The translations under genes and the position numbers were made by a program. 24,284 bases of DNA. Origin: a virus. The stretch lies in IMG/VR virus record IMGVR_UViG_3300038954_000074, positions 1 through 24,284 of that record; one strand, 5' to 3'. This document shows, in pieces, positions 586 to 20,665 of this stretch; position 1 is the first letter of the stretch; every line of letters begins with the position of its first letter. Below the pieces are notes generated by a model, which did not search any database, was not told where the DNA came from, and saw nothing but the letters and a program-made list of their open reading frames with translations.

Positions 586-3000
586 TCACTGCCCTCCTCG
601 GTATGCGCCGAGCTCCGGTAGGATCACCGCGACGGTACACGGGACCGGGAGAGAACTCTCGATCGTCACGCGCTGATCGTTGTCGTAATCTCCGCCGAGC
701 GGCACGAGCTTTTCACCAGTGAACAATTGTGTTGGCTGTCCGTACGGTGTGCTCGGTTCTCTGAATATGATCTCTTCAAGCGCGTCCGGGTCGTATCCGG
801 CTTGTGCCTGCATTGTGTTGATGAAACGGGCACGAACCGCATGCATTCGGCCGCGTTTTGCTTCGGCCAGGGCGGCCATGATGTTCATGGTCTGCATGCG
901 CATTGTGAACGGTAGGCCGACGTGAATGACGTTTCCATAGCGTCCGTCGTCGAGTGTGACCGTTCCGCTTGTTACTGTGCGATCTCCGTGCGGGCCGCCG
1001 TCGACGGCTATGCTCACGGTTTCGCCTTCCAGGTGCGTGAGTCCAGTAACCTGCGCGTAGACCTGCTCCATCGTGCCGGCGGTTGCAGGGTCACGGCCCG
1101 TCCCGTCCTCATTGTCCAGCGTGAACGTGTTGGCGTCGGTCACGGTGATCAGAAAGGTACGGCCCTCGAGCTCGGTCATGCCAGTGACGTCGGTGATCCG
1201 CACACGGTCGCCGGTGCTCAGCCCGTGCGCCGTTGCGGTTACGCTCACGGGGTCGGCGGCGGTTGCCGCCTCGAGCGCGAAACTGTCGCCGCCGTCAAGA
1301 ATCGTTCCGGCGTCCACGTGGTGCCGTTCGGCCAGGTCCGTCGGGTATCGTGCGCTCATGTATTCGACGTACCGAGTCACCGATCCATCGATTGTGCGCT
1401 TCACGGTCATCCAAAGCTCATCCTCGGATCCCGCGGGGATCGTGGCGATGCTCTCGATCTCTCCATCTGTCACGTGGCGCGCCCATCCCATCGTTTCGGT
1501 CGACTTTTCATAGGTGAGAGAAAGTAGCACGCCGTCGGTGCGCAGTATCCACAGTACGGGGTCGGGGTCGCTCGAGAACGCAAGCTCACGAATCCCAGGG
1601 TCGGTGATGTGGTCGCTCCAGAATGTGAGATCGGCCGCGCGATATGCCTGCAGCTCGTTGCGATAGAAGTATTCGCGAATCTTCTTCGCTCCCTTCTGTA
1701 CAAACAGGACGTTCTCGTTAATGAGCATGCCCTGGATATTGGCGCTACCGAACGTTGTTCGACGGTCTGCGACGACCGAGCGAGGTGTGATTCCTGCCTC
1801 TCCGCCCCCCATGACCCATTCGCTACCGGTCGTGCCGATGATGAGCATGTTCTTCGATGCGATCCACTGAATCTTGTCGCTTCGATCGGAGAGAAGCGAG
1901 TATTGCCACGCGTCCTGGTCGGTCGGGCCGAGAAGAAACAGGGTGTAGTAGCCGGTCGCGCTGCCCCAGACTGTGTTGTTGGCATTGATGGTGCCGGCAA
2001 AGATGAGTCGGTCTTGAAAGTATCCGACCGCGGCGGGATAGTCGCCCGACTCGTCAAACGGATTCGGGTTGATCGTGGTTGAAATCGCGACCCAATTCGT
2101 CGTGTCGCTTGATGGCTCCGTCTCCGAGTAGACTTCGTTCAGACACCGATAGTACGTACCCGCGTACTCGACAATTTGCCCCGGGGCGTACGTGGTCGCG
2201 AATCGTCGGATGCCGGTGATGTTTCCTTCACGATCACGAATATAGACGGTTTCCGGGCTCTGCCAGGACGGCACGGCGAGCTCGAGATCTTCCCACGTCC
2301 ACGCCGTCGGTCCGTAGTAGGTCAGAAGTTTTGGGGGCTTGTTTGGCTGTACGAGCGCGAGCTGATTGTTCGCCTGAACGTATTTGATCGTGGAGAGCTC
2401 TGCCTGCGCATAGAACGCTGCGCTGTCTTGCTCGACGACGATTGTGTCAACGGTGCTGGTGGCGACGCTTGGATAGCCGGCGCCTTGGTTCGCGCTCTGC
2501 GTGTTTCCGTCGGCGTCCTTGGCTGAAAGCTCTTCGCCGTCAGTAAATGTGCCCGACGGTGCAGAAATCAGATACTCGAGCGAGCTATTCTGCTTCAAGA
2601 TGTAGGCGGTCACTCCGGATGTCCCACCGGTCAGTTCCGCCCCGGCGGCCCATGGTTGTGTCGGAGCGGCATCAAGAGTCATGGTGTAGCGGGTCGTGTA
2701 CAGAAGATGATCGCCATCGTCATTGTGCATGACGCGGACCCCGCCGTCGAAGAACTCGAGCACGTAGCGGGTATTCTCGTCCACGACGAACTCGATCAGT
2801 CTGCTTGCTGCGGTGATGTCGGCTGTCTCGGCCATCCAGACCGTGCCCGGACGCTTCTCGGCGCCCCCCTGGGGGAGCACGAGCGCGTTCTGCAGCTCGG
2901 CGAGTCCCTGATAGAACGCCTCGGCGTCGCTTCGTCCTTCCATCCGCGGGCTGAGCTCGCCGCGGACAAAGTTACTGATCACCGGCGTCATGAGACTCAT
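586..3000 (-). CDS. tail tubular protein B-like tail/nozzle protein
   Basis: This is an 804-residue structural protein. The N-terminus, with NFVRGELSPRMEGRSD at residues 9-24 followed by LVLPQGGAEKRPGT, carries the signature of the large tail protein of BPP-1-type and related podoviruses, which forms the lower tail tube or nozzle together with tail tubular protein A. The remainder is beta-rich with many Thr/Ser/Asp. The frame is open far upstream (to 3522), but the ATG at 3000 is chosen because it overlaps the stop of tail tubular protein A as ATGA and because the conserved N-terminus begins there. Family placement is firm; the exact position in the virion is inferred from T7 gp12-type proteins. 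Confidence 0.87.
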   Translation of the reverse strand: MSLMTPVISNFVRGELSPRMEGRSDAEAFYQGLAELQNALVLPQGGAEKRPGTVWMAETADITAASRLIEFVVDENTRYVLEFFDGGVRVMHNDDGDHLLYTTRYTMTLDAAPTQPWAAGAELTGGTSGVTAYILKQNSSLEYLISAPSGTFTDGEELSAKDADGNTQSANQGAGYPSVATSTVDTIVVEQDSAAFYAQAELSTIKYVQANNQLALVQPNKPPKLLTYYGPTAWTWEDLELAVPSWQSPETVYIRDREGNITGIRRFATTYAPGQIVEYAGTYYRCLNEVYSETEPSSDTTNWVAISTTINPNPFDESGDYPAAVGYFQDRLIFAGTINANNTVWGSATGYYTLFLLGPTDQDAWQYSLLSDRSDKIQWIASKNMLIIGTTGSEWVMGGGEAGITPRSVVADRRTTFGSANIQGMLINENVLFVQKGAKKIREYFYRNELQAYRAADLTFWSDHITDPGIRELAFSSDPDPVLWILRTDGVLLSLTYEKSTETMGWARHVTDGEIESIATIPAGSEDELWMTVKRTIDGSVTRYVEYMSARYPTDLAERHHVDAGTILDGGDSFALEAATAADPVSVTATAHGLSTGDRVRITDVTGMTELEGRTFLITVTDANTFTLDNEDGTGRDPATAGTMEQVYAQVTGLTHLEGETVSIAVDGGPHGDRTVTSGTVTLDDGRYGNVIHVGLPFTMRMQTMNIMAALAEAKRGRMHAVRARFINTMQAQAGYDPDALEEIIFREPSTPYGQPTQLFTGEKLVPLGGDYDNDQRVTIESSLPVPCTVAVILPELGAYRGGQ

Positions 3001-3632
3001 TCGTAGAACCTCTCGCGCGTCGGATGGTTGCCGACCGAAACGTCGCGGAACGATGTCGTGTCGCGGTATCCCTGCCAGCGGTGCGCCGCGTCCGCGCCGG
3101 CGGCTTCCATTCGCTTCGATCCGTAGAGCCTGAGCGCGTACTCCTCGTTTTCGTGGCTCTGCGTGAGCTTGAAGGCCATCGCCGCGGCCATGGCGTAGGC
3201 CATCGCGTAGACGAGAAGCGGGTCGAAGAGCGTGACGTCTTCGATCTGAGCGACGTACTTGATCGCGCACCGATCGCCGTCGTAGTACAGCGAGCGGCCT
3301 TCGATCATGTACTTCGCCTGCGATGCGTCGATGTCGGCGTAGTCGTTGGTCGGATCCACGAGCCCGATCACACGAAGACACCGCGGATCGGCGGGAAGCT
3401 GATACGCGTAATCGAACGGCGTGTAATTGTCGATGTCGAGCTGCGCGAGCTCGGCGCGCCGGACCGCCACGGACCAGTTCGCTTCCGGGTCTGCGAGCAC
3501 GTTGTCGCGTACGGTGTCCCATAGCTCGTTTGCGAGCACGCTCTTTGCGTCGGATCCGTCGATGCTCGATATGCGCTCGGCGCCGATTGCGGTCAATCCC
3601 AGGTTGACGATCTTGGTGACGGTTGTACTCAT
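2997..3632 (-). CDS. tail tubular protein A-like (head-tail adaptor)
   Basis: The 211-residue protein begins MSTTVTKIVNLGLTAIGAERI, then ELWDTVRDNVLADPEANWSVAVRRAELA and YAYQLPADPRCLRVIG. This is the pattern of T7 gp11-like tail tubular protein A: a helical N-terminus with a W-(S/A) turn and a YxLP-DxLRV strand. It should form a dodecameric ring between portal and nozzle. It is translationally coupled to the tail tubular B gene by an ATGA overlap. The Ala-rich helix near residues 140-156 (YAMAYAMAAAMAFKLTQ) is typical of the family. A GC-rich hairpin lies just upstream in the mRNA. Confidence 0.88.
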   Translation of the reverse strand: MSTTVTKIVNLGLTAIGAERISSIDGSDAKSVLANELWDTVRDNVLADPEANWSVAVRRAELAQLDIDNYTPFDYAYQLPADPRCLRVIGLVDPTNDYADIDASQAKYMIEGRSLYYDGDRCAIKYVAQIEDVTLFDPLLVYAMAYAMAAAMAFKLTQSHENEEYALRLYGSKRMEAAGADAAHRWQGYRDTTSFRDVSVGNHPTRERFYE

Positions 3633-4469: not shown

Positions 4470-5447
4470 TTATGAGACGGCCGACTCGGTGTCGAGAATC
4501 TGCTCGACGACTGCGATCGGAGATCCATTGAAACGCGTGATGTTCGTTCCATCCTGGAGCACGTCCAGGGTGAAGTAGGCGTTCGACTTGTCGTGCGCCC
4601 ACACGTCGAACTGACCCTTGGTGGTCCGGTTGACGTAGATCACGCTGTCGCGGCCGAACCGCGGGAGCTGGGCCTGCAGGAGAATCAGATTCTCCGCCAC
4701 GTTGTCGGCGCGCAGGTTGTTGGACGTCCCGGCGCTTTCGACGTTGGCCAGGCGGTGCACGGCGCGATCCTCGTCGGGAATCGCGAGGCCGATCTTCACC
4801 TGGACCTGGTACTCGTAGCCGCGGTACGGCTTCGAGCTCGAGTCGTAGAGCGTGTTCTCGCCGAGCGCCTTCGACATGATACCGGCCTCGCTACCCTTCG
4901 GGTAGAAAAGGTGCGCGGCGTCGCGGCCCCATTCGACGAGCCACACGCTCGTGAGATCGCTTCCCGAACCGCCGGCGCTCACGACGTGATTCGACGCCAG
5001 CGCGTTGTACCGCGTGGCCAGACCGTCGATCACCTTCGGGTCACTTGCGGTGTTCCCGTAGATGAAGTTGTAGGCGAACGCCTGGAGCTCTGCCTCCATG
5101 TGTGCCTTGACTTCACCCATCATGAACTCGTTGAAATCGGGCTCGGGCCCGTAGATCAGCTCGTCCACCTGAATGATCGAGTCCAGGACCATGATACCCT
5201 CACGGACCTGGCGGACCTTGCTGACGGTGTTCGTCGCGCCTTCGTTCGGACCTCGGGCGCTCACCGTCGGAAGGGCTCCACGGATCGTGGAAACGTGGCT
5301 GTGCACGTCGTTGCCCTCGTAGGCCGCGGCGGTCTTGAAGATATCGTTCAATTCGTCCAGGATCTCGGCGATCTTCTGGACCTCACCGTTGTAGCGGCGC
5401 TTGGCCTGCTCGAGAACGGTGATTACGTTCTGTGAAAGGGTTGACAT
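4470..5447 (-). CDS. major capsid protein, BPP-1-like
   Basis: A 325-residue protein, starting MSTLSQNVITVLEQAKRR. Features of this podovirus capsid family are the N-terminal helix, the central ELIYGPEPDFNEFMMGEVKAHMEA block, the segment after NFIYGNTASDPKVIDGLATR, and the late GRDSVIYVNRTTKGQFDVWA. BPP-1 capsid has an HK97-like fold with rearranged topology; the sequence resembles that group rather than classic HK97 or P22. It is preceded by a scaffold gene and followed by the cement protein gene, the standard order. The ATG has AGGAGA upstream in a 31-base gap that also contains a small GCGCG/CGCGC inverted repeat. Confidence 0.88.
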   Translation of the reverse strand: MSTLSQNVITVLEQAKRRYNGEVQKIAEILDELNDIFKTAAAYEGNDVHSHVSTIRGALPTVSARGPNEGATNTVSKVRQVREGIMVLDSIIQVDELIYGPEPDFNEFMMGEVKAHMEAELQAFAYNFIYGNTASDPKVIDGLATRYNALASNHVVSAGGSGSDLTSVWLVEWGRDAAHLFYPKGSEAGIMSKALGENTLYDSSSKPYRGYEYQVQVKIGLAIPDEDRAVHRLANVESAGTSNNLRADNVAENLILLQAQLPRFGRDSVIYVNRTTKGQFDVWAHDKSNAYFTLDVLQDGTNITRFNGSPIAVVEQILDTESAVS

Positions 5448-6255: not shown

Positions 6256-6588
6256 TTACTCCGTTCGTTTTGGTCGATTGTAGCTCGGGATCCTCCCGGG
6301 GATCTCAAGATACGCCGCTGTTACACTGCGGAGCTGTTCAGCATGCCATATGCCGAGCTCCGCGAGAATCAGCTTCGCCACGTTTCCGAGCGCTGCCTCG
6401 GCCGCCGACGCGTCTGACGTCGAGAAGTGGCCCAGGATGCTCAGTAGCTTGGCGAGCACTTCCTTTCCGTTCTCTGTGCCGAAAACCTCCCTCCACGTGT
6501 TGATGGTGTTCGCGTCGATCTGGAGATACTCCTGCCGTACGCGCTCGAGAATGCGGTCTATGCCGTCGTGCTCAAGTTGCTCGCTCAT
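6256..6588 (-). CDS. small protein of the portal-scaffold interval, unknown
   Basis: A 110-residue, mainly helical protein beginning MSEQLEHDGIDRILERVRQEYLQIDANTINTWREVFGTENGKEVLAKLLSIL. It contains W32 and an Ala-rich helix, and ends with a Pro/Arg tail. Its ATG overlaps the portal stop codon (ATGA), so it is made with the portal. Small helical genes at this position are common in BPP-1-type genomes, but I know no function. It could be an assembly chaperone or minor head protein; that is a guess from position. Confidence 0.78.
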   Translation of the reverse strand: MSEQLEHDGIDRILERVRQEYLQIDANTINTWREVFGTENGKEVLAKLLSILGHFSTSDASAAEAALGNVAKLILAELGIWHAEQLRSVTAAYLEIPGRIPSYNRPKRTE

Positions 6589-8282
6589 CCTATCCCCGGT
6601 GGTCGCGCCGTGCCGCCCCCTCCGGGCATCCCGGATCCGCCGGCCTTGGCAAGTGTTGCCTGTAGCTCCGCCGCCTGCTTGGCGAGCGCGATCTCGCGCT
6701 CCTGCGCGGCCATCCTGTTACGCTGCTCTCTGATCGCCTGTACGTCTTCTTCGCTTCGGATCAGATCCTCGGGCGTGTCCATGCGGCGAAGCGCCTCCTT
6801 CATGAGCGCATTCCCGTCGATGTAGTCGATCGTCTCGGGGATCATCTGCGTCACGAGCGACGCCTGGTTGAGAATCTGGATCACGTTCATCTGCCCATAG
6901 TGACGCTTCTGGAGCTGCGCCAGGGGCCCGTCGTAGGTGAACCGGGTGTCTGCGATACGATCCCGGATCTCCGGCGGCGGATCCGGCATCATGCCTTCCT
7001 GCTCGAGAATGTAAGCGATTGTCGCAAGCGACGGATCCAAGAACTCGCTTTCGTAGCGCCCGACCTCGGCGCCCATGACGGCGGCCTTCTCGCCGGCGAG
7101 CTGCGCCGTCTCATAGGCGGTGCGCTGGCCAGACTGGCTCTGGCTCAGCATGAGCCAGAAATCAACGTGGTAGTGACGGCGAATCGACTCCCGGATATCG
7201 TCCTGGAGATCCACCCCCCACGGGTAGCTGCCGACCGCCGCGACCTGCGTGACCTGCCGCCGCGGGTCGTAGTACGGCGTCATGCCGTGTGGGTTCAGGT
7301 TCAGCTTTCCCTCGAGCTCGGCCGGGTACTGCATCGGCGGGCGCACCGCCAGGTCCGCGGCGAGCAGCATCGTCTCGTTGATCTTCTCGGCTCGCAAGAG
7401 ATCGATCAGCGCAAGGTGGCTCGGCCCGCGTCCGTACGGGGAGCCGGGATAGCGCGAGAAGCGCCAGAAGATGTCGCGCAATCTGTCGTATCCGGATTCG
7501 CGCAGCATGCGGTTTGGACCCATGAGGATCCAGACGCTCGCATAGTTCTTGTCCGTGTTCACGCGCAGTCCATCGACCATTTTGTCGCGTCGCGGGTAGC
7601 ACGCGTGGAGTACCTTTTTCGTCGCAAGCGGCTGCCGGCGCGCTTGATCCAGCTCGTGTGACTCGAGCGCTTGCTCGCCGAACTCGTCGACGATCTGCCG
7701 CCAGTTGAGCTCTTCGACGATGTAGACCGTATCCACCATGCCGAGCGCGTTCTCGGCGATGTATACCTGATTCGGATGCCGCGGTCGGAAGTGCAGCTTT
7801 CGGTGCGCCTGACTGAAATCGATGGTCCATCCGCCGGTGCCGACGGATCCGCCGGCCTTCAACACGGGCTGAATGCTGTCGTAGAAGTTGGAGCTCTGCA
7901 GTTGCCACGTGATGACTTCCGTGCGCTCCTGGAGATAGCGTCGGACGCCGGCGGCTTTCATGAGCTTGTGGTCAGCGAGCGTTTCCTTGACCCACGGGGA
8001 ATTGCGCGGCGTCGTGTAGCCTTGAAAACCGTTTGCCCACAAGCGCAGCGCGTCCCGCCCGGTGGCGTCGAAGTTCTGCGCCACGCGCCGCTCGGGTAGC
8101 GATGCGTCGGCGACCTCGTTCATGATGTCCGAGTACTCGGGCGCGATGATCTCGGTGATGTCTTCCCAAATGGATTCTTCGCGCTGGCGGATCTTCTTCA
8201 TTTCCTCGAGCCGCGTAAGGATTTCGCTCGTGAGTCGTGCGGTTCGGGCGTCCTGTCTGCTTACCAGCGCGGTATCGCTCAT
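6585..8282 (-). CDS. portal protein (head-to-tail connecting protein family)
   Basis: A 565-residue protein matching the podovirus head-to-tail connector: an N-terminal helix with IRQREESIWEDITEIIAPEY (about residues 35-54), RDALRLWANGFQGYTTP near residue 80, then NFYDSIQPVLKAGGSVGTGGW, and PYGRGPSHLALIDLLRAEKINE in the core. The C-terminus is coiled-coil (VQAIREQRNRMAAQEREIALAKQAAEL) with a Gly/Pro tail. It should form the dodecameric portal through which DNA is packaged and ejected. Length fits the family. The gene is four bases downstream of its upstream neighbour and overlaps the next gene by ATGA. Confidence 0.92.
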   Translation of the reverse strand: MSDTALVSRQDARTARLTSEILTRLEEMKKIRQREESIWEDITEIIAPEYSDIMNEVADASLPERRVAQNFDATGRDALRLWANGFQGYTTPRNSPWVKETLADHKLMKAAGVRRYLQERTEVITWQLQSSNFYDSIQPVLKAGGSVGTGGWTIDFSQAHRKLHFRPRHPNQVYIAENALGMVDTVYIVEELNWRQIVDEFGEQALESHELDQARRQPLATKKVLHACYPRRDKMVDGLRVNTDKNYASVWILMGPNRMLRESGYDRLRDIFWRFSRYPGSPYGRGPSHLALIDLLRAEKINETMLLAADLAVRPPMQYPAELEGKLNLNPHGMTPYYDPRRQVTQVAAVGSYPWGVDLQDDIRESIRRHYHVDFWLMLSQSQSGQRTAYETAQLAGEKAAVMGAEVGRYESEFLDPSLATIAYILEQEGMMPDPPPEIRDRIADTRFTYDGPLAQLQKRHYGQMNVIQILNQASLVTQMIPETIDYIDGNALMKEALRRMDTPEDLIRSEEDVQAIREQRNRMAAQEREIALAKQAAELQATLAKAGGSGMPGGGGTARPPGIG

Positions 8283-9154: not shown

Positions 9155-9170
9155 ACGCCCTCTTCGGCCT

Positions 9171-9200: not shown

Positions 9201-9220
9201 GTCCCTGTTTCGCGGCGGGC

Positions 9221-9251
9221 AAAAGAAAGCCCCCGGCGGGCAACCGGGGGC
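9221..9251 (-). terminator. rho-independent terminator ending the accessory operon
   Basis: On the minus strand a perfect 8-bp stem, GCCCCCGG (from 9251) and CCGGGGGC (to 9229), seven-base loop, is followed directly by TTTCTTTT (9228-9221). It lies 43 bases past the last accessory gene and 20 bases before the -35 box of the virion promoter, so it separates the two transcription units. Confidence 0.9.
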
Positions 9252-9293
9252 AAAGGAGCTGTGACGGCCATCGCCACTGCCAGAAAGGTGAGA

Positions 9294-12171: not shown

Positions 12172-12195
12172 CTGCATCGCCTCCCGCGCGCATCA

Positions 12196-12214
12196 CGTTG
12201 CATTCTGCGTTGCA
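12196..12214. promoter_or_regulatory. tandem CGTTGCA repeat upstream of the helix-turn-helix gene
   Basis: CGTTGCA occurs at 12196-12202 and 12208-12214, a 12-bp period, in the 108-base gap before the excisionase-like gene. Tandem sites of this spacing suit a small winged-helix protein. No clear -35/-10 pair could be placed in the gap. Confidence 0.35.
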
Positions 12215-12279
12215 GTTTCCGCCCCATACCGTAGCGCACCCGCCGTATCATCCACCGCAACCACGTCTGCCGGCGCCAC

Positions 12280-12537
12280 TCATATCTGCGGCCGAGTATC
12301 ATCGCCCTCATCTTTGACCCCTCGGATCATTTCGCTCAGCCGGCGAAGATCCTGCGCCTGCCGCCCGGCCCGTTCATGCTGGACGTTCTCGTTGTAGCGA
12401 GCTCCGCAATGCGCGCACCGAACCACGAGCTCGACGTCCCACTCGGTCGCGTTCGGATCGTGCGTGTGATCCACGAGCTCGGGTCGCACGCTCAGCGGTT
12501 CGCACTCGCATGCTGCCTGATACCTGACTCTCATCAT
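12280..12537 (-). CDS. small Cys-rich protein, zinc-ribbon-like
   Basis: An 85-residue protein, MMRVRYQAACECEPLSVRPE at the start, with C10 and C12 and later VRCAHCGARYNEN (a CxxC knuckle). The pairs could bind one zinc. The C-terminal half is helical and charged. ATGA overlap with the upstream gene; a second ATG follows immediately. Function unknown; zinc-ribbon proteins of this size are common in phage accessory operons. Confidence 0.7.
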   Translation of the reverse strand: MMRVRYQAACECEPLSVRPELVDHTHDPNATEWDVELVVRCAHCGARYNENVQHERAGRQAQDLRRLSEMIRGVKDEGDDTRPQI

Positions 12538-12950
12538 TGCCCCCTTCTGGTTGCCAGTTGATTGATCAGCTCCGCATTCTCTTCGCGCAGCTTCCGTAAC
12601 TCAGTATTCGCAGCCGCGAGCTGCATCGCTTCGACGCTTGCCGGCGGGCTTGCATCCCAATATCCCCGCCGCGAAAGCTCCCTTTGCAGCATCTTCGCAT
12701 GTCGCCGTGCTACTCGAGCTTCTCGCCACCACCGGCGCGCCGTCGCATAGTAACGTTCCAGTCGCTCAAGCGCTGACCCACGCCCCGGATGATTGGGCTC
12801 GAACATTGCCCGACACGTTCGATCTCCATTGACCATGCTCGCGACCGCGCCCATCACGCCGCAAGTCCCGCCGAGCCGGTCCCACTGATACCATCGGCAC
12901 ATTGCACAAACCGGATGCCGATAGCCTGTTCGTTTCCTGACGTTCATCAT
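12534..12950 (-). CDS. Cys-containing protein with coiled coil, first gene of second accessory operon
   Basis: A 138-residue protein. The N-terminus holds a Cys set (C15, C18, C30, C46) in HPVCAMCRWYQ, GTCGVMG and DRTCRAMFEP, suggesting a metal- or Fe-S-binding knob. The region from about 58 is Arg-rich and helical, and the C-terminus (MQLAAANTELRKLREENAEL) is a leucine-zipper-like coiled coil. The gene starts only eight bases after the -10 box of the promoter at 12959-12987, so its message would be nearly leaderless. Two consecutive ATGs (12950, 12947) are possible starts. Function unknown. Confidence 0.73.
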   Translation of the reverse strand: MMNVRKRTGYRHPVCAMCRWYQWDRLGGTCGVMGAVASMVNGDRTCRAMFEPNHPGRGSALERLERYYATARRWWREARVARRHAKMLQRELSRRGYWDASPPASVEAMQLAAANTELRKLREENAELINQLATRRGQ

Positions 12951-12958
12951 CGCCTCTT

Positions 12959-12987
12959 AATTTAGCACGTCTGCTACTTTATCGCAA
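12959..12987 (-). promoter_or_regulatory. promoter with TAGCA-N4-TGCTA operator in its spacer
   Basis: Minus strand: -35 TTGCGA (12982-12987), 17-bp spacer, -10 TAAATT (12959-12964). The spacer and the first two -10 bases carry the palindrome TAGCAGACGTGCTA (12963-12976). A 24-bp stretch (12959-12982) matches 22 of 24 bases at the promoter 17125-17148. Palindrome placement between -35 and -10 is classic for a repressor site. Expected start is near 12952, directly before the ATG. Confidence 0.75.
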
Positions 12988-12995
12988 CCCTTTTG

Positions 12996-13625
12996 TCACG
13001 ACTGGTCGTCGGTCCATTCTACATTCACGATGGGCCCGATCTTCGGCTCCTCTTGCTCGACAACCTCGACCGGAAGGTAGCGCGTGATCTCGCCTCCGGT
13101 GTCGACTTCCACCGCTTCGGCAACGTGCTCTCCCTCGCTGTTCTTCGTAAACTGTAGCTTCACGTCAAAGTGCTGCGCAGCCGGTAATCGCCTTTTGCTC
13201 AGCGTGCGATATGTCCTGGCGTCTTCTTCACCGCAAGCTATCGCGAGCTCTTCCATCTGCGTGAGCTCGGCCATCCGGCGCTCGGCGACCTGCAACGGAT
13301 CTGTTCCGAACTCGAACGCCTCTCCGATCATCGACGTCAGTACCTTCCGACACTCTTCCATCGCCTGGCGTCTGATCTCGTGATACCACCCAGTGTCAAT
13401 GGTCATTGACGCCCCACCGCGTGAGCGTATGCTCGTCTCTCCGATATTCATGAGCCGCCTCTCGGCTTCCACTGCCTTATCCCGATACTTATCAACCTCG
13501 TCGATAAGTCCCGCTTTCGCGTTTTCGATATCCAGTTGCGCGGTTTCCATCCTGACTTTCAGTTCGTAGAGCGCGTCCTCGATGTACCCGGCGTAATCTC
13601 CGTAGTTGTCTGGTAGCTTGGCCAT
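12996..13625 (-). CDS. accessory protein, unknown (last gene of first accessory operon)
   Basis: A 209-residue protein: MAKLPDNYGDYAGYIEDALY, a long helical region with coiled-coil character (about 12-60), a Gly/Ser turn (SRGGASMTIDTGWYHEIRRQAME), further helices, and a beta-like C-terminus (HFDVKLQFTKNSEGEHVAEAV, then YLPVEVVEQEEP). The basic/acidic helical body could be a recombination or single-strand-binding helper, but I see no diagnostic motif. GGGAGG lies five bases before the ATG; the gene begins immediately after the stop of its neighbour. Confidence 0.7.
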   Translation of the reverse strand: MAKLPDNYGDYAGYIEDALYELKVRMETAQLDIENAKAGLIDEVDKYRDKAVEAERRLMNIGETSIRSRGGASMTIDTGWYHEIRRQAMEECRKVLTSMIGEAFEFGTDPLQVAERRMAELTQMEELAIACGEEDARTYRTLSKRRLPAAQHFDVKLQFTKNSEGEHVAEAVEVDTGGEITRYLPVEVVEQEEPKIGPIVNVEWTDDQS

Positions 13626-14015
13626 CTATTCCTCCCCGATTAGGTCCAGTTGCTCCCCCGCCGGGAACACGTCTTCCATCTGCGATGCGAGCGCGCGCTT
13701 CACCGCGGCGATCGCTGACAGCCGCCCCTCGAGACTGTGCAGGTACTCGAGTACCTCCGACCGGCTCGTGGCGACCTTGTACCCTTGACTGGTCGCGATC
13801 AGACACGGAACCATGCCCGACCGCCGTATGTGATTCACGATCTTGCGGATGCGCGGGCCCGCCTTCCGGTTGCCCGCCGGCAGTCCCAGGTACCGCGCGA
13901 TCTCATCGGACGTGTGCCATATCGGATTGCGATAGAGCATGTCCGCGATGTCGGCGGCCTGCCGCATTTCCTCGTCGCTCAGTGCTTCGGTTTGCTCCTC
14001 GAATCCGGTGATCAT
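13626..14015 (-). CDS. winged-helix DNA-binding protein
   Basis: A 129-residue protein. Residues about 15-80 (MRQAADIADMLYRNPIWHTS, EIARYLGLPAG, RKIVNHIRRSGMVPCLIA, GYKVATSRSEVLEYLHSLEG) form a winged-helix domain: a helix-turn-helix then an IATSQGYKVA wing of the kind found in phage regulators and primosomal-type proteins. A C-terminal helix follows. ATGA overlap with the upstream gene. It could be the regulator of the two TAGCA-type promoters that bracket its operon; this is a guess from location. Confidence 0.72.
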   Translation of the reverse strand: MITGFEEQTEALSDEEMRQAADIADMLYRNPIWHTSDEIARYLGLPAGNRKAGPRIRKIVNHIRRSGMVPCLIATSQGYKVATSRSEVLEYLHSLEGRLSAIAAVKRALASQMEDVFPAGEQLDLIGEE

Positions 14016-14293
14016 GATTCAATCGCCTCCAGTAGCATCGGCTTGACCTCGTGCTCCCACGAACCGACAAAGCGCTTCGCCTCTCGGATGAATCCGACGA
14101 TCAGTCGCGGATCCGCGTCGACCTGTCCAAGTATCTCGCCCATCATTTGCGGACGCTCGACCGCTACCATGTCGATCATATCGCCGAGCTCTTCGCCCAC
14201 GTCGATCTCGACGTCCACGTCTACCTTGCCCACGTCGACCGTGGTTGCTATCTCGAGTAGGTAGCGCGACCCCACCTTTCTGACTCTGCTCAT
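14012..14293 (-). CDS. small protein, unknown
   Basis: A 93-residue protein with an acidic, Val-rich beta stretch (VDVGKVDVDVEIDVGEELGD, about 19-38) and helical remainder (RPQMMGEILGQVDADPRLIVGFIREAKRFV). No recognised domain. GGAGGT lies eight bases before the ATG, inside the end of the preceding gene. Confidence 0.68.
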   Translation of the reverse strand: MSRVRKVGSRYLLEIATTVDVGKVDVDVEIDVGEELGDMIDMVAVERPQMMGEILGQVDADPRLIVGFIREAKRFVGSWEHEVKPMLLEAIES

Positions 14294-14297
14294 CCTG

Positions 14298-14768
14298 TCA
14301 TACCTCCCTGATCTGACCGTCGACTACCTGGAGCATGGCCCCGGATCGACTCCGATACGGCTCGCCGCGGCGCGCGCGGCGACGGTCCTTCTTCGTTGCC
14401 GGCTGCGCCTTGTGGGCCCCGCGAATCGTGCGTCCGTCAGGCGCTATCACGACCTTGCGCCATCCTCCTCGGTCGTTCTCGTACGCTGTGCCGTCGCGAA
14501 ACTTGATCGCACGTCGCTTTCGCTCGACCCGTTTGGCGGGCTGATCGGCACGATCACTTGCCTTGATCATCTTCCCGAACGGGCTCGCTGTCTCGACCGT
14601 CCGGCCGGCGCCGGCGTCCTGTACCACGTGGATCTGCTTGCGCTCTTCGTCCGTGCTCCCGTCGGCGGCGAACGTCGCGTACATGGCTGTTCGGTACGTG
14701 CACCGATACCGCACGCCTGAAAACGTGCGGTATACGGTGTCCTGCTCGAAACGGATCGGCTCACTCAT
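14298..14768 (-). CDS. basic accessory protein, unknown
   Basis: A 156-residue protein. The first half is beta-like (FEQDTVYRTFSGVRYRCTYR); the second is strongly basic (VERKRRAIKFRDG and TKKDRRRARRGEP), with a short RSRSGAMLQVVDGQI end. The charge suggests nucleic-acid binding. Overlaps the upstream gene by eight bases. No family recognised. Confidence 0.68.
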   Translation of the reverse strand: MSEPIRFEQDTVYRTFSGVRYRCTYRTAMYATFAADGSTDEERKQIHVVQDAGAGRTVETASPFGKMIKASDRADQPAKRVERKRRAIKFRDGTAYENDRGGWRKVVIAPDGRTIRGAHKAQPATKKDRRRARRGEPYRSRSGAMLQVVDGQIREV

Positions 14769-15069
14769 CCTGATACCCTTCCGGGCGCTCGAGTACCTGG
14801 AACACGTGCACGGGGCCGGTGCCCATCATGCGCGTTTTCACCGTGGCGACGTGCACGCGATACTCGCTGTCGTCGAGCTCCTGAAACGGCTCTCCGGTCC
14901 TGTAGAGCTCGAGCTCCACCGGGCGCTGGTACCCGTCTTCCTGCGGCTGGACAATCGCCCATACGTTGATCTTCCCATCTACCGTCCCGACGTGGATGAT
15001 GTCCGCCGGAAGCGGGATGTCCACGACCTGTCTCGTCACTGACTGTAGCTCGAATCGCCATACCTTCAT
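14761..15069 (-). CDS. DUF7352-like small phage protein
   Basis: A 102-residue beta protein: MKVWRFELQSVTRQVVDIPL, IIHVGTVDGKINVWAIVQP, LELYRTGEPFQE, YRVHVATVKTR, HVFQVLE. The strand order, the WAxV-P segment and the YRTG turn match the widespread small phage family DUF7352, of unknown function. The frame is open upstream, but the ATG at 15069 overlaps the previous stop by ATGA and starts the conserved part. Confidence 0.8.
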   Translation of the reverse strand: MKVWRFELQSVTRQVVDIPLPADIIHVGTVDGKINVWAIVQPQEDGYQRPVELELYRTGEPFQELDDSEYRVHVATVKTRMMGTGPVHVFQVLERPEGYQDE

Positions 15070-15335
15070 GCTGTTCGCTCCTCTTCGTCGACCGTGATCG
15101 GTCCCTCGACTGGCGCGAGATCGTGCTCTTCGGCCAGTAGGCGATACGGCGTGCTCGCCTTGCACCGTGCGATGCGCTCGACGACCTCGGCCCGGTTCTC
15201 CGCGTCGGCGAAGTACCTCGGGTTGATCGCGTCTGCGATGTCCGGCGGGTCGAGCTGCCGGCCTGCGGCAACCTCCGCTTCCAGGATCGCGGTGATCACT
15301 GGCACGCGGCTCTCGTCGTCCTTGCTCCTTCTCAT
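15066..15335 (-). CDS. small acidic protein, unknown
   Basis: An 89-residue mainly helical protein, MRRSKDDESRVPVITAILEA, then PPDIADAINPRYFADAENRAEVVERIARCK and a Pro/Glu tail. Start selected by ATGA overlap with the gene upstream; the earlier in-frame region has no support. Function unknown. Confidence 0.68.
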   Translation of the reverse strand: MRRSKDDESRVPVITAILEAEVAAGRQLDPPDIADAINPRYFADAENRAEVVERIARCKASTPYRLLAEEHDLAPVEGPITVDEEERTA

Positions 15336-15535
15336 GCTATGCCCCTTTCCTGTGGTGTATGCCATCCGCCAAACGTGGCGTATGTGGCCTGCTTCACGTC
15401 GGCGCGCAGCTCGTGCAACTCGGTGAGCCGGCGCTCGATGTCCTCGAGTAGATCGTAGGCGTGGTTCTCGCTTTGGATCCCGTGCTCTTCGCGGAGATAC
15501 GCCTCCGCGCTCTCGTAGTACTTCAACCGCTTCAT
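15332..15535 (-). CDS. small helical protein, unknown
   Basis: A 67-residue protein, MKRLKYYESAEAYLREEHGI at the start, with a second helix EDIERRLTELHELRADVKQA. Probably a helical hairpin. ATGA overlap at both ends places it firmly within the operon. No function recognised. Confidence 0.68.
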   Translation of the reverse strand: MKRLKYYESAEAYLREEHGIQSENHAYDLLEDIERRLTELHELRADVKQATYATFGGWHTPQERGIA

Positions 15536-15777
15536 ACCTGTTCTGCCTCCTGTAGCGCCAAGTCCAGTTGATCAATGGCGCTCTCCATCTTGACGCGGAG
15601 CTCCATCGCAATCTCGGCCCATCGGACTACGCGCTCTTGGAGCTCCTTCTCTCGGGCCTCGTAGTCTGCGAGCTTCACGTACAGTTCGTTCGGATCTCCC
15701 GGTAGGTTGTTCTCGCTGAGCTCGTGCATGGGCGGGTTATCGTCCACGACGGCTGCGGGGAAGTAGATGTTCGGCAT
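15532..15777 (-). CDS. small coiled-coil protein, unknown
   Basis: An 81-residue acidic protein with a disordered N-terminus (about 1-30) and a coiled-coil C-terminus (YVKLADYEAREKELQERVVR through LQEAEQV). Its ATG shares one base with the methyltransferase stop codon (TAATG), a coupling arrangement different from the usual ATGA. Function unknown. Confidence 0.68.
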   Translation of the reverse strand: MPNIYFPAAVVDDNPPMHELSENNLPGDPNELYVKLADYEAREKELQERVVRWAEIAMELRVKMESAIDQLDLALQEAEQV

Positions 15778-16700
15778 TAGCTGCTCCTCCTGTTCTCCAG
15801 TGCTGCGATTGTTGCGAATATCGGGTACGCCTGCTGGGGTACTACTGCGTTTCCGAGACTTCGCAATCGGTCCACCCGATTGGGAATCCCATGAGCCACT
15901 CGACCCACGTCGGGTTCAGTTGCCCACCATTCGGCGTGATTCCATACTTCGGATCCGTGAGTTGTGCTTTCCGGTTGCCTCCCTTCCAGACGTTCGCGTC
16001 CGGCGTCGCTACCATCTTCGCGAGGCCCTGCAGGCTCGGCCTCGCCTTCGTGTGGTCGCCCCGGTCGTACTGGTAATCGCCCCGCTTGTGGTCGATCGCG
16101 GTGGGAGTCGGGAACATTTTCACGTATTGATGCAACGACGCTCCGCTTTGATGTCCGTTCCCTAACTTGCCGCCGCGAATCCCGTGACCATTTGGGCTGA
16201 GGCCCGTGTCCGGCGTGGGCAACAATGAATACTCGGTCCCTCCTGTGCGGGGCGCCGACGCTTGCAGCCGGATAATGGAACGGGAGTGTTTCGTATCCTT
16301 CACGCTCCAGGTCAGAAAGCACAAGCTCGAACTCGGCTCCATCGTTGAGAGAAAGTAGTCCAGAAACGTTCTCTGCCACGACGTATGTCGGGGATAGCTC
16401 GCGAACAACTCGTAGCATCTGCGGCCAGAGGTAGCGGTCATCCTCCGCGCCTCCTCGCTTCCCGGCCTGAGAGAACGGCTGGCACGGGAATCCTCCGGAA
16501 ATAACGGTAGGGTAGATCCATCGTTCATCCGCTGTTACCTCCGCGATGTCGGTGAGTCGTGGTACGTCCGGCCAGTGTCGCTCGAGCACGCGCAGCGCAT
16601 ACGGGTCGCGCTCTACCTGCAGGATCGTGCGAAAACCGGCGGCCTCGGCGGCCAGGTCCAGACCGCCGATACCGGTGAAAAGCGATACGTGCGTCATCAT
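15777..16700 (-). CDS. cytosine-5 DNA methyltransferase (Dcm-type)
   Basis: A 307-residue enzyme that would transfer a methyl group from S-adenosylmethionine to cytosine C5 in DNA. Motifs: I, LFTGIGGLDLA (residues 7-17); IV, GGFPCQPFS with catalytic C73; VI, ENV (110-112); VIII, RRDRVFIVA (153-161); IX/X, GRVAHGIPNRVDRLRSLGNAVVP (about 266-288). The region between VIII and IX (target recognition, about 162-265) is polar and repetitive, probably because a second gene is read through it in another frame. The ATG at 16700 overlaps the previous stop by ATGA; an upstream open extension lacks support. Likely protects phage DNA from host restriction. No cognate restriction enzyme is present, as expected for an orphan phage enzyme. 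Confidence 0.92.
   Translation of the reverse strand: MMTHVSLFTGIGGLDLAAEAAGFRTILQVERDPYALRVLERHWPDVPRLTDIAEVTADERWIYPTVISGGFPCQPFSQAGKRGGAEDDRYLWPQMLRVVRELSPTYVVAENVSGLLSLNDGAEFELVLSDLEREGYETLPFHYPAASVGAPHRRDRVFIVAHAGHGPQPKWSRDSRRQVRERTSKRSVVASIRENVPDSHRDRPQAGRLPVRPGRPHEGEAEPAGPREDGSDAGRERLEGRQPESTTHGSEVWNHAEWWATEPDVGRVAHGIPNRVDRLRSLGNAVVPQQAYPIFATIAALENRRSS
15842..16528 (-). CDS. gene nested inside the methyltransferase, phage LPTP/VEWLMGFP family
   Basis: A 228-residue product read from the same strand as the methyltransferase but in another frame, entirely within it (methyltransferase residues 58-287). It has its own Shine-Dalgarno, GGAGGT at 16537-16542, eight bases before the ATG. The sequence is not shadow-like: CFLTWSVKDTK (70-80), SAPRTGGTEYSLLPTP (91-106), FPTPTAIDHKRG (139-150), ATPDANVWKGG (174-184) and LNPTWVEWLMGFPIGWT (204-220) are the recurring blocks of a phage protein family I know from genomes carrying Dcm genes, function unknown. 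The last block resembles the motif IX region of other phage methyltransferases. Presence of the family is firm; expression is inferred. Confidence 0.78.
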   Translation of the reverse strand: MNDGSTLPLFPEDSRASRSLRPGSEEARRMTATSGRRCYELFASYPRHTSWQRTFLDYFLSTMEPSSSLCFLTWSVKDTKHSRSIIRLQASAPRTGGTEYSLLPTPDTGLSPNGHGIRGGKLGNGHQSGASLHQYVKMFPTPTAIDHKRGDYQYDRGDHTKARPSLQGLAKMVATPDANVWKGGNRKAQLTDPKYGITPNGGQLNPTWVEWLMGFPIGWTDCEVSETQ

Positions 16701-16891
16701 CTTGCCCGTCGTGGATCCTGGCGCGCGGCGGCCGGCGTCGTCAATGCGACGATCTCGGCCGCGCACGCTTCCCATTGCTGGCGAGCCGCGTCTGTCTCCG
16801 GTCCGGATCCGTGGAACACGAGCCGAAACCATTCAGTGTGCGCGGCGCGGCCACGCTCCAAGGCCGCGCGCAGTTCGTCGCGGTTGATCAT
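16697..16891 (-). CDS. small helical protein, unknown
   Basis: A 64-residue protein, MINRDELRAALERGRAAHTE at the start, then DAARQQWEACAAEIVALT. Two helices with a basic tail. ATGA overlap with both the zinc-ribbon gene upstream and the methyltransferase downstream, so the three are co-translated. Function unknown. Confidence 0.7.
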   Translation of the reverse strand: MINRDELRAALERGRAAHTEWFRLVFHGSGPETDAARQQWEACAAEIVALTTPAAARQDPRRAR

Positions 16892-17106
16892 GCGGTGACC
16901 TCTACGGGTGCGCCGTAGGACACTTTTCGCGGTTTGTCCCGGTCAAAGTTGATCTGCCATCGGCACCGCGGGCACCGCTCGCCGAGACAAAGGTCTGACT
17001 CGTCGAGATAGACCTCGACGCCTTGGCCGCATCGGTAGCAGGTATCGAGCTCATCGTCCGACGTGTACCATCGGTTCGGATCGTAGCCGGTTCGCCCTCC
17101 TGACAT
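16888..17106 (-). CDS. zinc-ribbon protein, first gene of first accessory operon
   Basis: A 72-residue protein with DTCYRCGQGVEVYL (CxxC) and RCPRCRWQINFD (second CxxC), a two-knuckle zinc ribbon with a further Cys between. The message from the promoter at 17125-17153 would have a leader of about a dozen bases with AGGAGG six bases before the ATG. Zinc ribbons of this form bind nucleic acid or protein; target unknown. Confidence 0.75.
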   Translation of the reverse strand: MSGGRTGYDPNRWYTSDDELDTCYRCGQGVEVYLDESDLCLGERCPRCRWQINFDRDKPRKVSYGAPVEVTA

Positions 17107-17124
17107 AGTAGCCTCCTGCCATCT

Positions 17125-17153
17125 AATTTAGCACGGCTGCTATTTTATTGCAA
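17125..17153 (-). promoter_or_regulatory. promoter with TAGCA-N4-TGCTA operator in its spacer
   Basis: Minus strand: -35 TTGCAA (17148-17153), 17-bp spacer, -10 TAAATT (17125-17130). Palindrome TAGCAGCCGTGCTA (17129-17142) fills the spacer. Nearly the same sequence as at 12959-12987. It lies in the 54-base gap after the PP-loop gene and starts the operon that contains the methyltransferase. Confidence 0.76.
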
Positions 17154-17160
17154 GGCTTTT

Positions 17161-17910
17161 CTACAATCCGCAGTAGCCTTCGCATTCGTTGCCCCATAGA
17201 TCCCCCTGATCCTCGGAGAAGTCCACGTTTTCAAGCGGGCGCGCGCTCCTGTGAAGGAACGTTTCATCCTGCAATCGATCAAGCTTCCGGATCGAGCGGT
17301 CGAACGCCACCGCGTCGGCAAACTCTTCCGGCGAGTCCATTTTCAGGCGACGCCAGTAGTGGTCGTCATGGAACGGGCATCCAATGCAACTTGACTTTGG
17401 AACGTCCCATCCGCGTGCCTCAAGGTAGATCCTGCAGGCATTGCGGTCGATGCGTGCATCGATCAGCGGCCAGCGATGCGTTGTGTACTTCACAAAGCTG
17501 TCTTTCATCCGGTGGGCTTCATCGATGCTGATTCCGACCCATACCTCGGCTGGGTTCTTTGCCGACGCTCCGAGCTCGCGACACTTCTTCTGAATCGGAG
17601 CAACCTTGTATTCGCGCGTGCATTGCCGGCGCAGCATCGATACTTTGCCCGTCGTTTCGTTCTTGGTGAATAGCGGCATCGATGCGAAACGAGAGTCTGA
17701 TAGCGCGTCTGCTCGTAGGTTTCCCGCGCTGACTGTGAGAATCGGAATTTCGTTCAGCGCTTTTAGCCGATCAAGGTGGTCGTAGACTGCCTGCGGCTCC
17801 CATCCTGTATCTGCGAAGATTGCGTAGTCAGCTCTCGGAAGCTCGCCGCTGGCTGACATTAGGTACAGCGTGGTTGATTGAACGCCGGCCCCAAGACTGA
17901 TAACGGTCAC
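17161..17910 (-). CDS. PAPS-reductase-like PP-loop ATPase
   Basis: A 249-residue protein of the phage phosphoadenosine-phosphosulfate-reductase-like family (adenine nucleotide alpha hydrolase fold). The PP-loop is the variant ISLGAGVQSTTLYLM (4-18), followed by YAIFADTGWEP. Cysteines lie in QCTREYKVAPIQ, SSCIGCPFHDD and at the extreme C-terminus, NECEGYCGL; the latter two pairs could hold an Fe-S cluster. Classic members activate sulfate; the phage members have no proven substrate, and sulfur transfer to a nucleic acid base or backbone is a reasonable possibility. It is ATGA-coupled to the terminase nuclease gene, so it is made with the packaging proteins, and it sits directly before the methyltransferase operon. 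Confidence 0.85.
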   Translation of the reverse strand: MTVISLGAGVQSTTLYLMSASGELPRADYAIFADTGWEPQAVYDHLDRLKALNEIPILTVSAGNLRADALSDSRFASMPLFTKNETTGKVSMLRRQCTREYKVAPIQKKCRELGASAKNPAEVWVGISIDEAHRMKDSFVKYTTHRWPLIDARIDRNACRIYLEARGWDVPKSSCIGCPFHDDHYWRRLKMDSPEEFADAVAFDRSIRKLDRLQDETFLHRSARPLENVDFSEDQGDLWGNECEGYCGL

Positions 17911-18608
17911 TTTTGCCTCCCTTGGTCGCGATATAGTCGTAGCGGGTTATACGACGGCGCCTGTTCCTCGCCCCGGATGGGGGCCGGGACGGCGATTCCG
18001 AACGCCCGCTCGAAGTACCAGACTGCGATCGCCGCGGCGAGTACGATGTCGTCGTGCTCGCCCTCCTCGGCGCTGTACTTTTCGTTCTTCGCCTGACTGG
18101 TCGTGCGCCTGAATACGCGCAGCTCGTTCTCGAATTGCTCGGCGAGCTCGAGCGCCGGCGCGACCTGCAGCCTGCGATTCTGCGCGACTACCTGCAGGGC
18201 GCTGACGAGATCGCGTTTCGGGACGGTGTAGCCGACCTCGTTCTGCGCTACCGATGTACCGCCGGTGATCGTGACGCCGACCACGGCGATCCCGCCGCCG
18301 ATCATCTGCTGGACCACGGGGTAGCCGACGCCAGTGGCGTCCATCACGATCTGGATGTCCTGCCGGAATAGCTGCGGCATGTCCAGGATAGAGCGGATCC
18401 GCGCGATCAGTTGTCGGTACTCGATACCGAGCGGGAGACGCTCCATCAGCGGTACCTCATACGTCGAGTAGATCATGCGCCGTTCGCTCAGCTCTTCCCA
18501 CGTACCGGGAAGCGCGCGCCCCGGCTGCAGGCGTTCGCTTCTGCGCACGAGCACGATCGCGCTGTGGTCCTGGCGCGTTCCCACGTCCACGCCCATCACG
18601 TACTTCAC
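17907..18608 (-). CDS. terminase large subunit, nuclease domain as separate gene
   Basis: A 233-residue protein that begins immediately at the RNase-H-like nuclease domain: YVMGVDVGTRQDHSAIVLV (D8, D14), IVMDATGVG (D90) and GEHDDIVLAAAIA (D186, D187). These are the acidic residues that bind two metals and cut the genome at packaging ends. The start is GTG at 18608, overlapping the stop of the preceding gene as GTGA; the longer open frame upstream is a shadow of that gene. The ATPase half of the terminase is a different gene, 515 bases away (19123-19926). Confidence 0.88.
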   Translation of the reverse strand: MKYVMGVDVGTRQDHSAIVLVRRSERLQPGRALPGTWEELSERRMIYSTYEVPLMERLPLGIEYRQLIARIRSILDMPQLFRQDIQIVMDATGVGYPVVQQMIGGGIAVVGVTITGGTSVAQNEVGYTVPKRDLVSALQVVAQNRRLQVAPALELAEQFENELRVFRRTTSQAKNEKYSAEEGEHDDIVLAAAIAVWYFERAFGIAVPAPIRGEEQAPSYNPLRLYRDQGRQK

Positions 18609-19126
18609 GGCTCGGGTACCTCGTAGCCTTCCGGCCGCGACGCCGGCCTGAATCGGTGATCCATCCAGCGGAGCTCTCGGGCCCGCGCAAGTTCGTCGAT
18701 CTCCATGGGATCCGGTTGCTGCGCGCTCCCTCCCCATGCGGCATCGGCTATCGCGGTACATAGGCCGAACCATGCTTTCCACGGGATGACCGTGGGCTCT
18801 GACGTTGGCTTGTCCTCGCGCATCCACCACGGATTTGGTACGTCCTCGCGCTTCATCGTGCGCAGCTCTTTCGCATACGCTTCCGCGTTGTCCATCTGTA
18901 CGGCGATCAAGTGCGAGGCACATTCCTCGATCGTCGCGTTGCGAGCTCGTTCTACATAGTCGTCGTTCATTGGTTCCCCCCACTGTATCTTGTATGTTGT
19001 CGTCAACGGATCCGGCCATTTTGTGCCGTAGAGAAGCTCGTTCGATCGTTCTTTGCTCAGCGTCTTGGCGAGTTGGTGCACGTGCGCCTCGATCGCCCGT
19101 TTGCGCATTTCGTCTATCATGCTCAT
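18605..19126 (-). CDS. unknown gene inserted between the two terminase halves
   Basis: A 173-residue protein, MSMIDEMRKRAIEAHVHQLAKTLSKERS at the start. It has a middle segment DYVERARNATIEECASHLIAVQMDNAEAYAKELRTM, a WKAWFGLCTAIADAAWGG block and a DHRFRPASRPEGYEVPEP tail. The Ala-Glu-Cys helical segment resembles small accessory phage proteins that carry AAIEECA-type helices. No homing-endonuclease motif (HNH, LAGLIDADG, GIY-YIG) is visible, and the gene has overlapping start and stop (ATGA upstream, GTGA downstream), so it is coupled to both terminase parts. ATG 19126 chosen by that overlap; 19120 possible. Confidence 0.75.
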   Translation of the reverse strand: MSMIDEMRKRAIEAHVHQLAKTLSKERSNELLYGTKWPDPLTTTYKIQWGEPMNDDYVERARNATIEECASHLIAVQMDNAEAYAKELRTMKREDVPNPWWMREDKPTSEPTVIPWKAWFGLCTAIADAAWGGSAQQPDPMEIDELARARELRWMDHRFRPASRPEGYEVPEP

Positions 19127-19926
19127 AGCGCCTCTACCTCCGGATTCATGATCGTGTGCTCGCCCTCTTCGCCAAGCGGCTTCACGTCGTTGTCGAACAT
19201 ATCCCGGATCTGTTCGGCTGTGAAAGTCGCACCTTCGGGGTCCACGAACTCGGCCAGATACTCGCGCCTGAACTGGTAGTCCGGCGTGAGTAGCTGTTTT
19301 CGCTCGATCCATTCGCGCGGCACGCGCTCGCTCTCCCATACGGTGACGCGATAGCGGCTCCAGTACGGGTCGTCTCCGGTAGCGATCTTGTAGAAAAAGC
19401 CGGTCGTCTCGTAGGCGCTCGAGAGTAGAATGATCTGCCCGTTCGTCTGCAGGACCATCGGCTCGACCGCATAGTAGAGCTCGTCCTCGGCGAACGCGGC
19501 CTCATCGACTATGAGCATGGTCACATCCGACCACGATCGCGACGTCTTCGGGTCGCCGGGGAGCGCGACCATCCGGGCCCCGTTGAGAAACTCGATCTCG
19601 GTGCGTAGCTCCTTCTTGATCGGCAAGCCGGCGTGCTGGATATGCTGCTTCGCCTTCCGCATCAGATTGATCGATTGCTGCTGCGTGTCTGAGAAGATCA
19701 GCGCAAGACCGTTCGGTGTGGTCGCGCAGTGCTGGCTCGCCTTCAACGATACGGTGAAGGATTTGCCGATCTGCCGGCTGCAGGTGATACAGATTCGCCG
19801 CTCTGAGTCTCTGAGTATGTCCGCCTGCCATCCTTCCGGCTCGACGCCCATGCGCTCGCGCACGAACGCAACGGGGTCGAGATTGATCCGGATGGATTCA
19901 AGCACTCTCGCGGCGACGGAAGACAC
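19123..19926 (-). CDS. terminase large subunit, ATPase domain as separate gene
   Basis: A 267-residue DNA-packaging motor protein. Walker A CSRQIGKS (49-56), Walker B TMLIVDEAAF (136-145, D141/E142) and coupling motif IILLSSAYE (165-173) are present. The sequence ends at FRREYLAEFVDPEGATFTAEQI plus about 20 residues, the point where the linker to the nuclease domain normally begins, so the nuclease is absent. It begins with GTG at 19926, GGAGGAG seven bases upstream, and overlaps the small subunit gene by 29 bases. Function requires the nuclease gene at 17907-18608. Confidence 0.9.
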   Translation of the reverse strand: MSSVAARVLESIRINLDPVAFVRERMGVEPEGWQADILRDSERRICITCSRQIGKSFTVSLKASQHCATTPNGLALIFSDTQQQSINLMRKAKQHIQHAGLPIKKELRTEIEFLNGARMVALPGDPKTSRSWSDVTMLIVDEAAFAEDELYYAVEPMVLQTNGQIILLSSAYETTGFFYKIATGDDPYWSRYRVTVWESERVPREWIERKQLLTPDYQFRREYLAEFVDPEGATFTAEQIRDMFDNDVKPLGEEGEHTIMNPEVEAL

Positions 19927-20665
19927 TCGCTATCTCCTCCACGAGCTCTGGATACTTGCTGAACGCCTCCATGAGCTCTTGCTCGAGCTGGTGATACTCG
20001 GGGTGGCGCGTGATATCGCTGTTTCCCTGCGCGCGTAGCTCCGCGGCGTAGTCGATCAAGAGCTTCATTTGCCCCTGCAGCCCCTTGGCCGCCGATAGCA
20101 CGAGCGTACGCGGGTCGTTCGCCATGTTCCGCGGCTGCAGGATCTCCGATTGCGGCGAAGCGTACTCGCCGTTATTCGCCTCGTAGAGCGCCTCCTGCAG
20201 CGTCATGCTCTCGTAGGTGGGCGCGCCGCGGTCATTGTACGTGACTTTCTGTACCAGAATCTCCTCGGCGCGCGGCGCGAGCGTGTAGCGCGACGGATCG
20301 GCCGGATCGGTGAGATAGGCGTCGCACGCGTCAAAGAGCTTTCGCACGCGCTTGATGATCCCGTTCACTTCCCGTAGCAGGTCGATGCCCTCGAGCAGCT
20401 CGTCCTCCTCGAGCTTCGCTTGCACGCGGTCGACGTTGATCGCCGGGCCGGCGCGCGCGCCAGTCTTGCGTTTTGCCCTGTTCACCGTGACGCCGGCCAT
20501 CTGCGCGACGAGCTTGTTTTTGCGATAGCGCGACAATGTGGACGGGTGAATCCCGTACTTCTTACCGATCTCGGCGAGCGAAAGCTCTTGCTTGATCAGC
20601 GCCTTCTCGATCTGCTTTCGCTTCGGATGGTGCTCGATCAGGTACTTATTTCGCTCCGTGCCCAT
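19898..20665 (-). CDS. terminase small subunit
   Basis: A 255-residue protein with a helix-turn-helix near the N-terminus (QELSLAEIGKKYGIHPSTLSRYRKN, about 26-50), a basic linker (NRAKRKTGARAG), and a helical remainder typical of small terminase subunits that recognise the genome end and recruit the large subunit. It is directly upstream of the ATPase gene, the usual order. It overlaps the preceding small gene by 20 bases. Confidence 0.86.
   Translation of the reverse strand: MGTERNKYLIEHHPKRKQIEKALIKQELSLAEIGKKYGIHPSTLSRYRKNKLVAQMAGVTVNRAKRKTGARAGPAINVDRVQAKLEEDELLEGIDLLREVNGIIKRVRKLFDACDAYLTDPADPSRYTLAPRAEEILVQKVTYNDRGAPTYESMTLQEALYEANNGEYASPQSEILQPRNMANDPRTLVLSAAKGLQGQMKLLIDYAAELRAQGNSDITRHPEYHQLEQELMEAFSKYPELVEEIASVFRRRESA

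Follow-up and report, generated by a model that had tools for sequence, protein, structure and literature searches.

Separate genes for the ATPase and nuclease halves of a podovirus large terminase, very probably with a passenger gene between them

Introduction

How does a phage package its genome when the ATPase and the nuclease of its large terminase (TerL) are made as two proteins, and what is a third gene doing between the two? The C-terminal nuclease domain of TerL has been called universal (PMC7824862), and T4 gp17 retains both activities when it is severed at the linker, while translocation is abolished (PMC3012670). The locus that raises the question lies in the window, a 24,284-base IMG/VR record. 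We suggest that, very probably, the window comes from a podovirus of an old and wide lineage with a two-protein TerL, in which the gene between the halves, P0002, is a passenger and not a required bridge.

Results

Two intact terminase halves and an orphan gene

In downstream order, the minus strand of the window carries genes for TerS, the ATPase, P0002, the nuclease and a PAPS-reductase-like protein. The virion genes form a podovirus module with portal, scaffold-like, major head, two tail and internal virion proteins. The main features are as follows.

19898..20665, minus strand: putative small terminase (TerS), 255 aa, HTH at the N-terminus, immediately before the ATPase gene
19123..19926, minus strand: ATPase half of the large terminase, 267 aa, GTG start, Walker A and B
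19171..19188, minus strand: DVKPLG motif close to the C-terminal end of the ATPase, a candidate for a docking peptide (putative function)
18605..19126, minus strand: middle gene P0002, an orphan of 173 aa, with ATGA upstream and GTGA downstream
17907..18608, minus strand: nuclease half of the large terminase, 233 aa, GTG start, RNase H fold
17161..17910, minus strand: PAPS-reductase-like accessory gene (phrog_424, E 2e-41), GTGA overlap with the nuclease stop
6585..8282, minus strand: portal/head-tail adaptor of the podovirus module (phrog_332, E 2e-95)
4470..5447, minus strand: major head protein (phrog_212, E 3e-51)
2997..3632, minus strand: tail protein, tail tubular A-like (phrog_394, E 2e-35)
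586..3522, minus strand: ORF with the large tail protein, tail tubular B-like (phrog_376, E 9e-146)

The best stretch of the last match covers residues 474-971 and, because this ORF overlaps the previous gene, the true start of the large tail gene is placed further inside it. About 9 kb of accessory genes (8993-17910), including a C5 DNA methylase gene (15777-16832) and the PAPS-reductase-like gene, separate the nuclease gene from the portal gene; the two are close in many relatives.

The ATPase, P0002 and nuclease genes are three coupled, intact frames, and a purine-rich RBS-like stretch lies upstream of each start. Both terminase genes have a far higher coding score in their own frame than in any other. 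P0002 has phage-like codon usage and a coding signal of 0.325 bits per codon in frame, with negative values in the other five frames. It overlaps the ATPase gene by ATGA and the nuclease gene by GTGA, so that the original prediction of a 173-residue gene coupled on both sides is confirmed.

The ATPase half contains a P-loop ATPase domain; its Walker A motif is CSRQIGKS and its Walker B motif is LIVDEA, the key residues are invariant across the ATPase alignment (A2), and the C-terminus reads DNDVKPLGEEGEHTIMNPEVEAL up to the stop codon. It matches phrog_7579 over nearly its full length (PHROGs, E 3e-32) and Pfam Terminase_6N above the cut-off (E 6e-10), while profile A2 matches the ATPase structure of P74-26 TerL (4zni, E 5e-24) and also 3cpe. 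The nuclease half starts with VKYVMGVDVG, i.e., the first catalytic strand, and matches phrog_27743 over nearly its full length (PHROGs, E 7e-38), structures 5tge and 5m1f by profile, and Pfam Terminase_6C only below the cut-off. The predicted catalytic residues Asp8, Asp90 and Asp186/187 are conserved in the alignment. A model of the nuclease built with 20 relatives has a mean pLDDT of 86 and an RNase H fold that Foldseek matches to the G20c terminase nuclease (E 3e-8) as well as to the P74-26 and SPP1 nucleases. Like the window halves, phrog_7579 (239 positions, TerL) is ATPase-length and phrog_27743 (233 positions) is nuclease-length; judged by the sequence match, the latter family, listed with unknown function, is identified as the terminase nuclease half. 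The podovirus nucleases (window, L100, L101, L019, L032, L104 and L106) also have a conserved C-terminal Y[DN]P tail (alignment A4).

Comparison with fused relatives, e.g., Thermus phage Riverbug, places the ATPase end and the nuclease start at the interdomain linker, and the end of the window ATPase coincides with that of other split ATPases. Both domains of a TerL are, therefore, present but not in one polypeptide, and because the two genes are separate and in different frames, this is a split variant and not a standard TerL. The predicted position of the split, with the nuclease gene beginning at its first catalytic strand, is borne out.

Separate halves are shared by a clade

The first single-protein scans of IMG/VR gave only distant fused relatives or none, and profiles were needed; scans with profiles of the nuclease, the portal, the head protein and the ATPase, together with earlier searches, gave 349 loci in all. 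After removal of duplicates, 169 non-redundant viral or prophage loci have separate ATPase and nuclease genes. The gap from the ATPase stop to the nuclease domain is at most 130 bp in 137 of them, 131-400 bp in 18 and larger in 14, the window included, proportions that are not unbiased frequencies because the scans were seeded with split members. In the 137 loci, the two genes are directly adjacent, and the nearest podovirus relatives found are among these. The junction in split loci is usually an overlap of the ATGA or GTGA type. Loci with an assignable organism, 48 of them bacterial and 17 archaeal, fall in 13 phyla, and many are metagenome bins.

In the nuclease tree with 63 rows, a single branch parts split from fused terminases (bootstrap 99, SH-aLRT 95, present in all 200 bootstrap trees), and the window nuclease groups with the separately encoded nucleases; a quick tree of 162 rows has the same separation (SH-aLRT 98). 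The nuclease tree is unrooted and, thus, does not give which state came first; from the near-universality of fused TerL, we infer that the fused state is ancestral.

The podovirus relatives that are closest in their portal, capsid and tail genes (L100, L101, L019, L032, L041, L103 and L106) have the gene order TerS-ATPase-nuclease-portal-scaffold-head-tail and, judged where the terminase genes are within reach, an ATPase gene that adjoins the nuclease gene without a middle gene. TerS homologues lie directly upstream of the ATPase gene in L019, L100, L101, L103 and L106. L100 is the sister of the window ATPase (FastTree; 40% identical), and the L101 nuclease is 40% identical to that of the window. 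As judged from these sequence comparisons, the split is old and common to the clade, neither recent nor peculiar to the window phage. The original prediction was thus right that this is not a recent interruption. Its stable three-gene arrangement, by contrast, is not conserved in related phages: the nearest relatives lack the middle gene, most split loci have directly adjacent halves, and the intervening genes found elsewhere differ each time.

Two loci call for separate mention. L021, a candidate fused terminase, was rejected as such, its ATPase being in two frames; in this locus (4175-5647), the nuclease shares the first of the two ATPase frames, as expected of a split terminase that is frame-broken or was mis-sequenced. 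In L125, a relative by its capsid, the terminase is fused and unrelated, indicating that terminase modules have been swapped in the group of the window phage.

Annotation schemes for phages already carry separate names for ATPase-domain and nuclease-domain terminases, and individual split cases must, therefore, have been met before. In an incomplete literature search, no paper on lineages with a split terminase was found.

The junction tolerates insertions

No homologue of P0002 was found by tblastn (phages, plasmids), by an IMG/VR scan, in Pfam, PHROGs, NCBIfam or the PDB, or by phmmer among all ORFs of the 349 loci; thus, conservation of P0002 together with the split halves was not seen in the relatives and collections searched, which may lack close kin of the window. 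Family profiles gave no link to a packaging family and, in Pfam, PHROGs and other families, no match to a homing endonuclease or intein; an Rfam search of the window found no intron. The interruption, therefore, contains neither a self-splicing element nor a homing endonuclease that these searches detect, in line with what had been proposed from the first reading. The single-sequence AlphaFold model of P0002 is mostly helical at very low confidence (pLDDT 40).

Other loci also have genes between the halves: L015 has three small ORFs there, L113 has two and L104 one, L016 and L036 likewise have small ORFs, and L049, L051, L229, L251, L252, L327 and L338 have several genes. The inserted proteins compared (window, L113, L104, L015, L036, L016 and L049) have no mutual similarity, and L229, L251 and L252 look related and may have one insertion in common. 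A TIEDLIRREGREPGG-like stretch is repeated at the N-terminus of the inserted small ORFs of L015 (7055-8017). L104 and L106, with 78% identical ATPases and 80% identical nucleases, are a clean pair that shows the insertion of a single gene with both overlaps kept: in L106, the ATPase and nuclease genes overlap by ATGGCTGA, while L104 has one extra ORF of 98 aa (phrog_419, a common phage orphan family of unknown function) that overlaps at both sides, the far-end overlap being as in L106. In some phages, the halves are 2-5 kb apart (∼3.3 kb in L043 if the contig is circular) and, thus, a fixed bridging gene is not needed. Gaps of more than 400 bp are scattered on the 162-row tree and require a minimum of 10 changes; however, well-supported branches alone force only 3, and the count of independent insertions is, therefore, uncertain.

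Because the junction tolerates insertions and a detectable homologue was not found, P0002 is most likely a lineage-specific passenger at the ATPase-nuclease junction, and in itself it is probably an ordinary gene.

A recurrent motif at the end of split ATPases

A [DE][VI]xPL(F) motif recurs in the short C-terminal tail of split ATPases. The pattern [DNSE][VIFL]xP[LMIV] is present in 83 of the 175 split ATPases, compared to a mean of 2.7% and a maximum of 6.3% for shuffled tails, and in 0 of 38 linkers of fused relatives; because common descent explains part of this enrichment and the fused proteins belong to another clade, we offer a docking role for this candidate peptide as a hypothesis from sequence. 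The motif starts at a median of 11 residues from the C-terminus, and the window copy, DVKPLG, starts 21 residues from the ATPase end.

Discussion

The window terminase has the same two domains and the same catalytic motifs as the TerL proteins of Thermus phage P74-26/G20c and T4 gp17; however, those are one polypeptide with a covalent linker, whereas the window encodes two proteins. The best named phage matches of the window ATPase are Meiothermus phages MMP7/MMP17 and Thermus phage Riverbug (32-34% identity), and unlike the window, MMP17 and Riverbug encode a fused terminase of 415-417 aa in one gene. In Campylobacter phage IBB_35 and cyanophage Mic1, the large terminase gene is also interrupted, by an intron or intein (PMC3322345, PMC7156551). 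There, splicing restores one protein; the window has no splicing element, and the halves stay separate.

The window shares its separate genes with small plasmids. By tblastn with the nuclease, Salinibacter ruber pSR11, pSR14 and pSR31 and 16-kb Streptomyces virginiae plasmids were found to have separate, adjacent and overlapping ATPase and nuclease genes; in contrast to the window, these are small plasmid-borne elements, and they lack a middle gene. In pSR31 (L011, 5178-5780 and 5798-6436) and in L038 (7159-8492), one ATPase gene is followed by two terminase-nuclease genes in tandem. Three of the Salinibacter and Streptomyces plasmids (L010, L012 and L013) encode a split terminase together with primase genes and ParA or an integrase, L010 and L012 also encode a tape-measure-like protein, and all three may be phage-plasmids or satellites.

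Because gp17 cut at the linker loses translocation, a natural split must restore contact between the halves in some other way, and by analogy the window halves presumably join non-covalently. We suggest that the ATPase, ending inside the interdomain linker, and the RNase H-fold nuclease, beginning at its first catalytic strand, would assemble at the portal as a single packaging motor, and that co-translation, and perhaps also the conserved C-terminal peptide of the ATPase, would help this assembly. P0002 would have been inserted at the junction between the two genes, with the overlaps kept at both sides. The wider proposal, a clade-wide two-subunit motor in which the C-terminal peptide docks the nuclease non-covalently and the covalent link is dispensable, is more tentative; we regard it as possible but doubtful.

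Three other explanations have to be weighed against this scenario. The window is a metagenome contig, and one relative, L021, has a frame-broken ATPase; accordingly, the split could be a sequencing or assembly error or a decayed terminase, in which a fused gene was broken by a frameshift or by a misassembled insert. We find this hardly credible, since the nearest relatives have their split at this place too, both halves keep every catalytic residue, the overlaps are precise and accompanied by RBS-like sites, and all three genes have an in-frame coding signal. Fused nearest relatives and a frameshift, which would have spoken against the original prediction, were not seen; that no frameshift is apparent follows from the intact catalytic residues of both halves and from an ATPase end like that of other split ATPases. 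It is also conceivable that P0002 belongs to the terminase of the window phage and bridges or regulates both halves. Its translational coupling to both halves, its clear coding signal with phage-like codon usage and its mostly helical, albeit very low-confidence, prediction are consistent with such a role. However, P0002 is absent from all relatives examined, which manage without it, unrelated genes take its place in other phages, and family searches link it to no packaging family, making a bridging role very unlikely. Of the two roles originally considered for the middle protein, bridge or passenger, passenger is thus strongly favored.

The third explanation concerns how the halves work and not the passenger status of P0002: the ATPase alone might package DNA, as in phi29, with the nuclease a free enzyme and the two halves not forming one motor. 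The distance of up to several kb between the halves in some phages and the two nuclease genes per ATPase gene in pSR31 and L038 fit this idea, as does the phi29 ATPase, which has only a vestigial nuclease according to PMC7672431. In most loci, by contrast, adjacency and overlapping stop and start codons are kept, and this, like the enrichment of the C-terminal ATPase motif, suggests joint work, so that we consider separate enzymes rather unlikely. We, therefore, favor the joining of the two halves in one motor, with P0002 as a passenger.

The interest of the locus lies in the split and not in P0002. The assignment of phrog_27743 gives this family a name and explains why nuclease halves were left hypothetical in records such as pSR11. 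If the docking reading is true, the covalent link between ATPase and nuclease would be dispensable for genome packaging. A natural clade split at the linker is a direct test of whether translocation needs the covalent join of ATPase and nuclease, and it offers separable subunits for motor studies.
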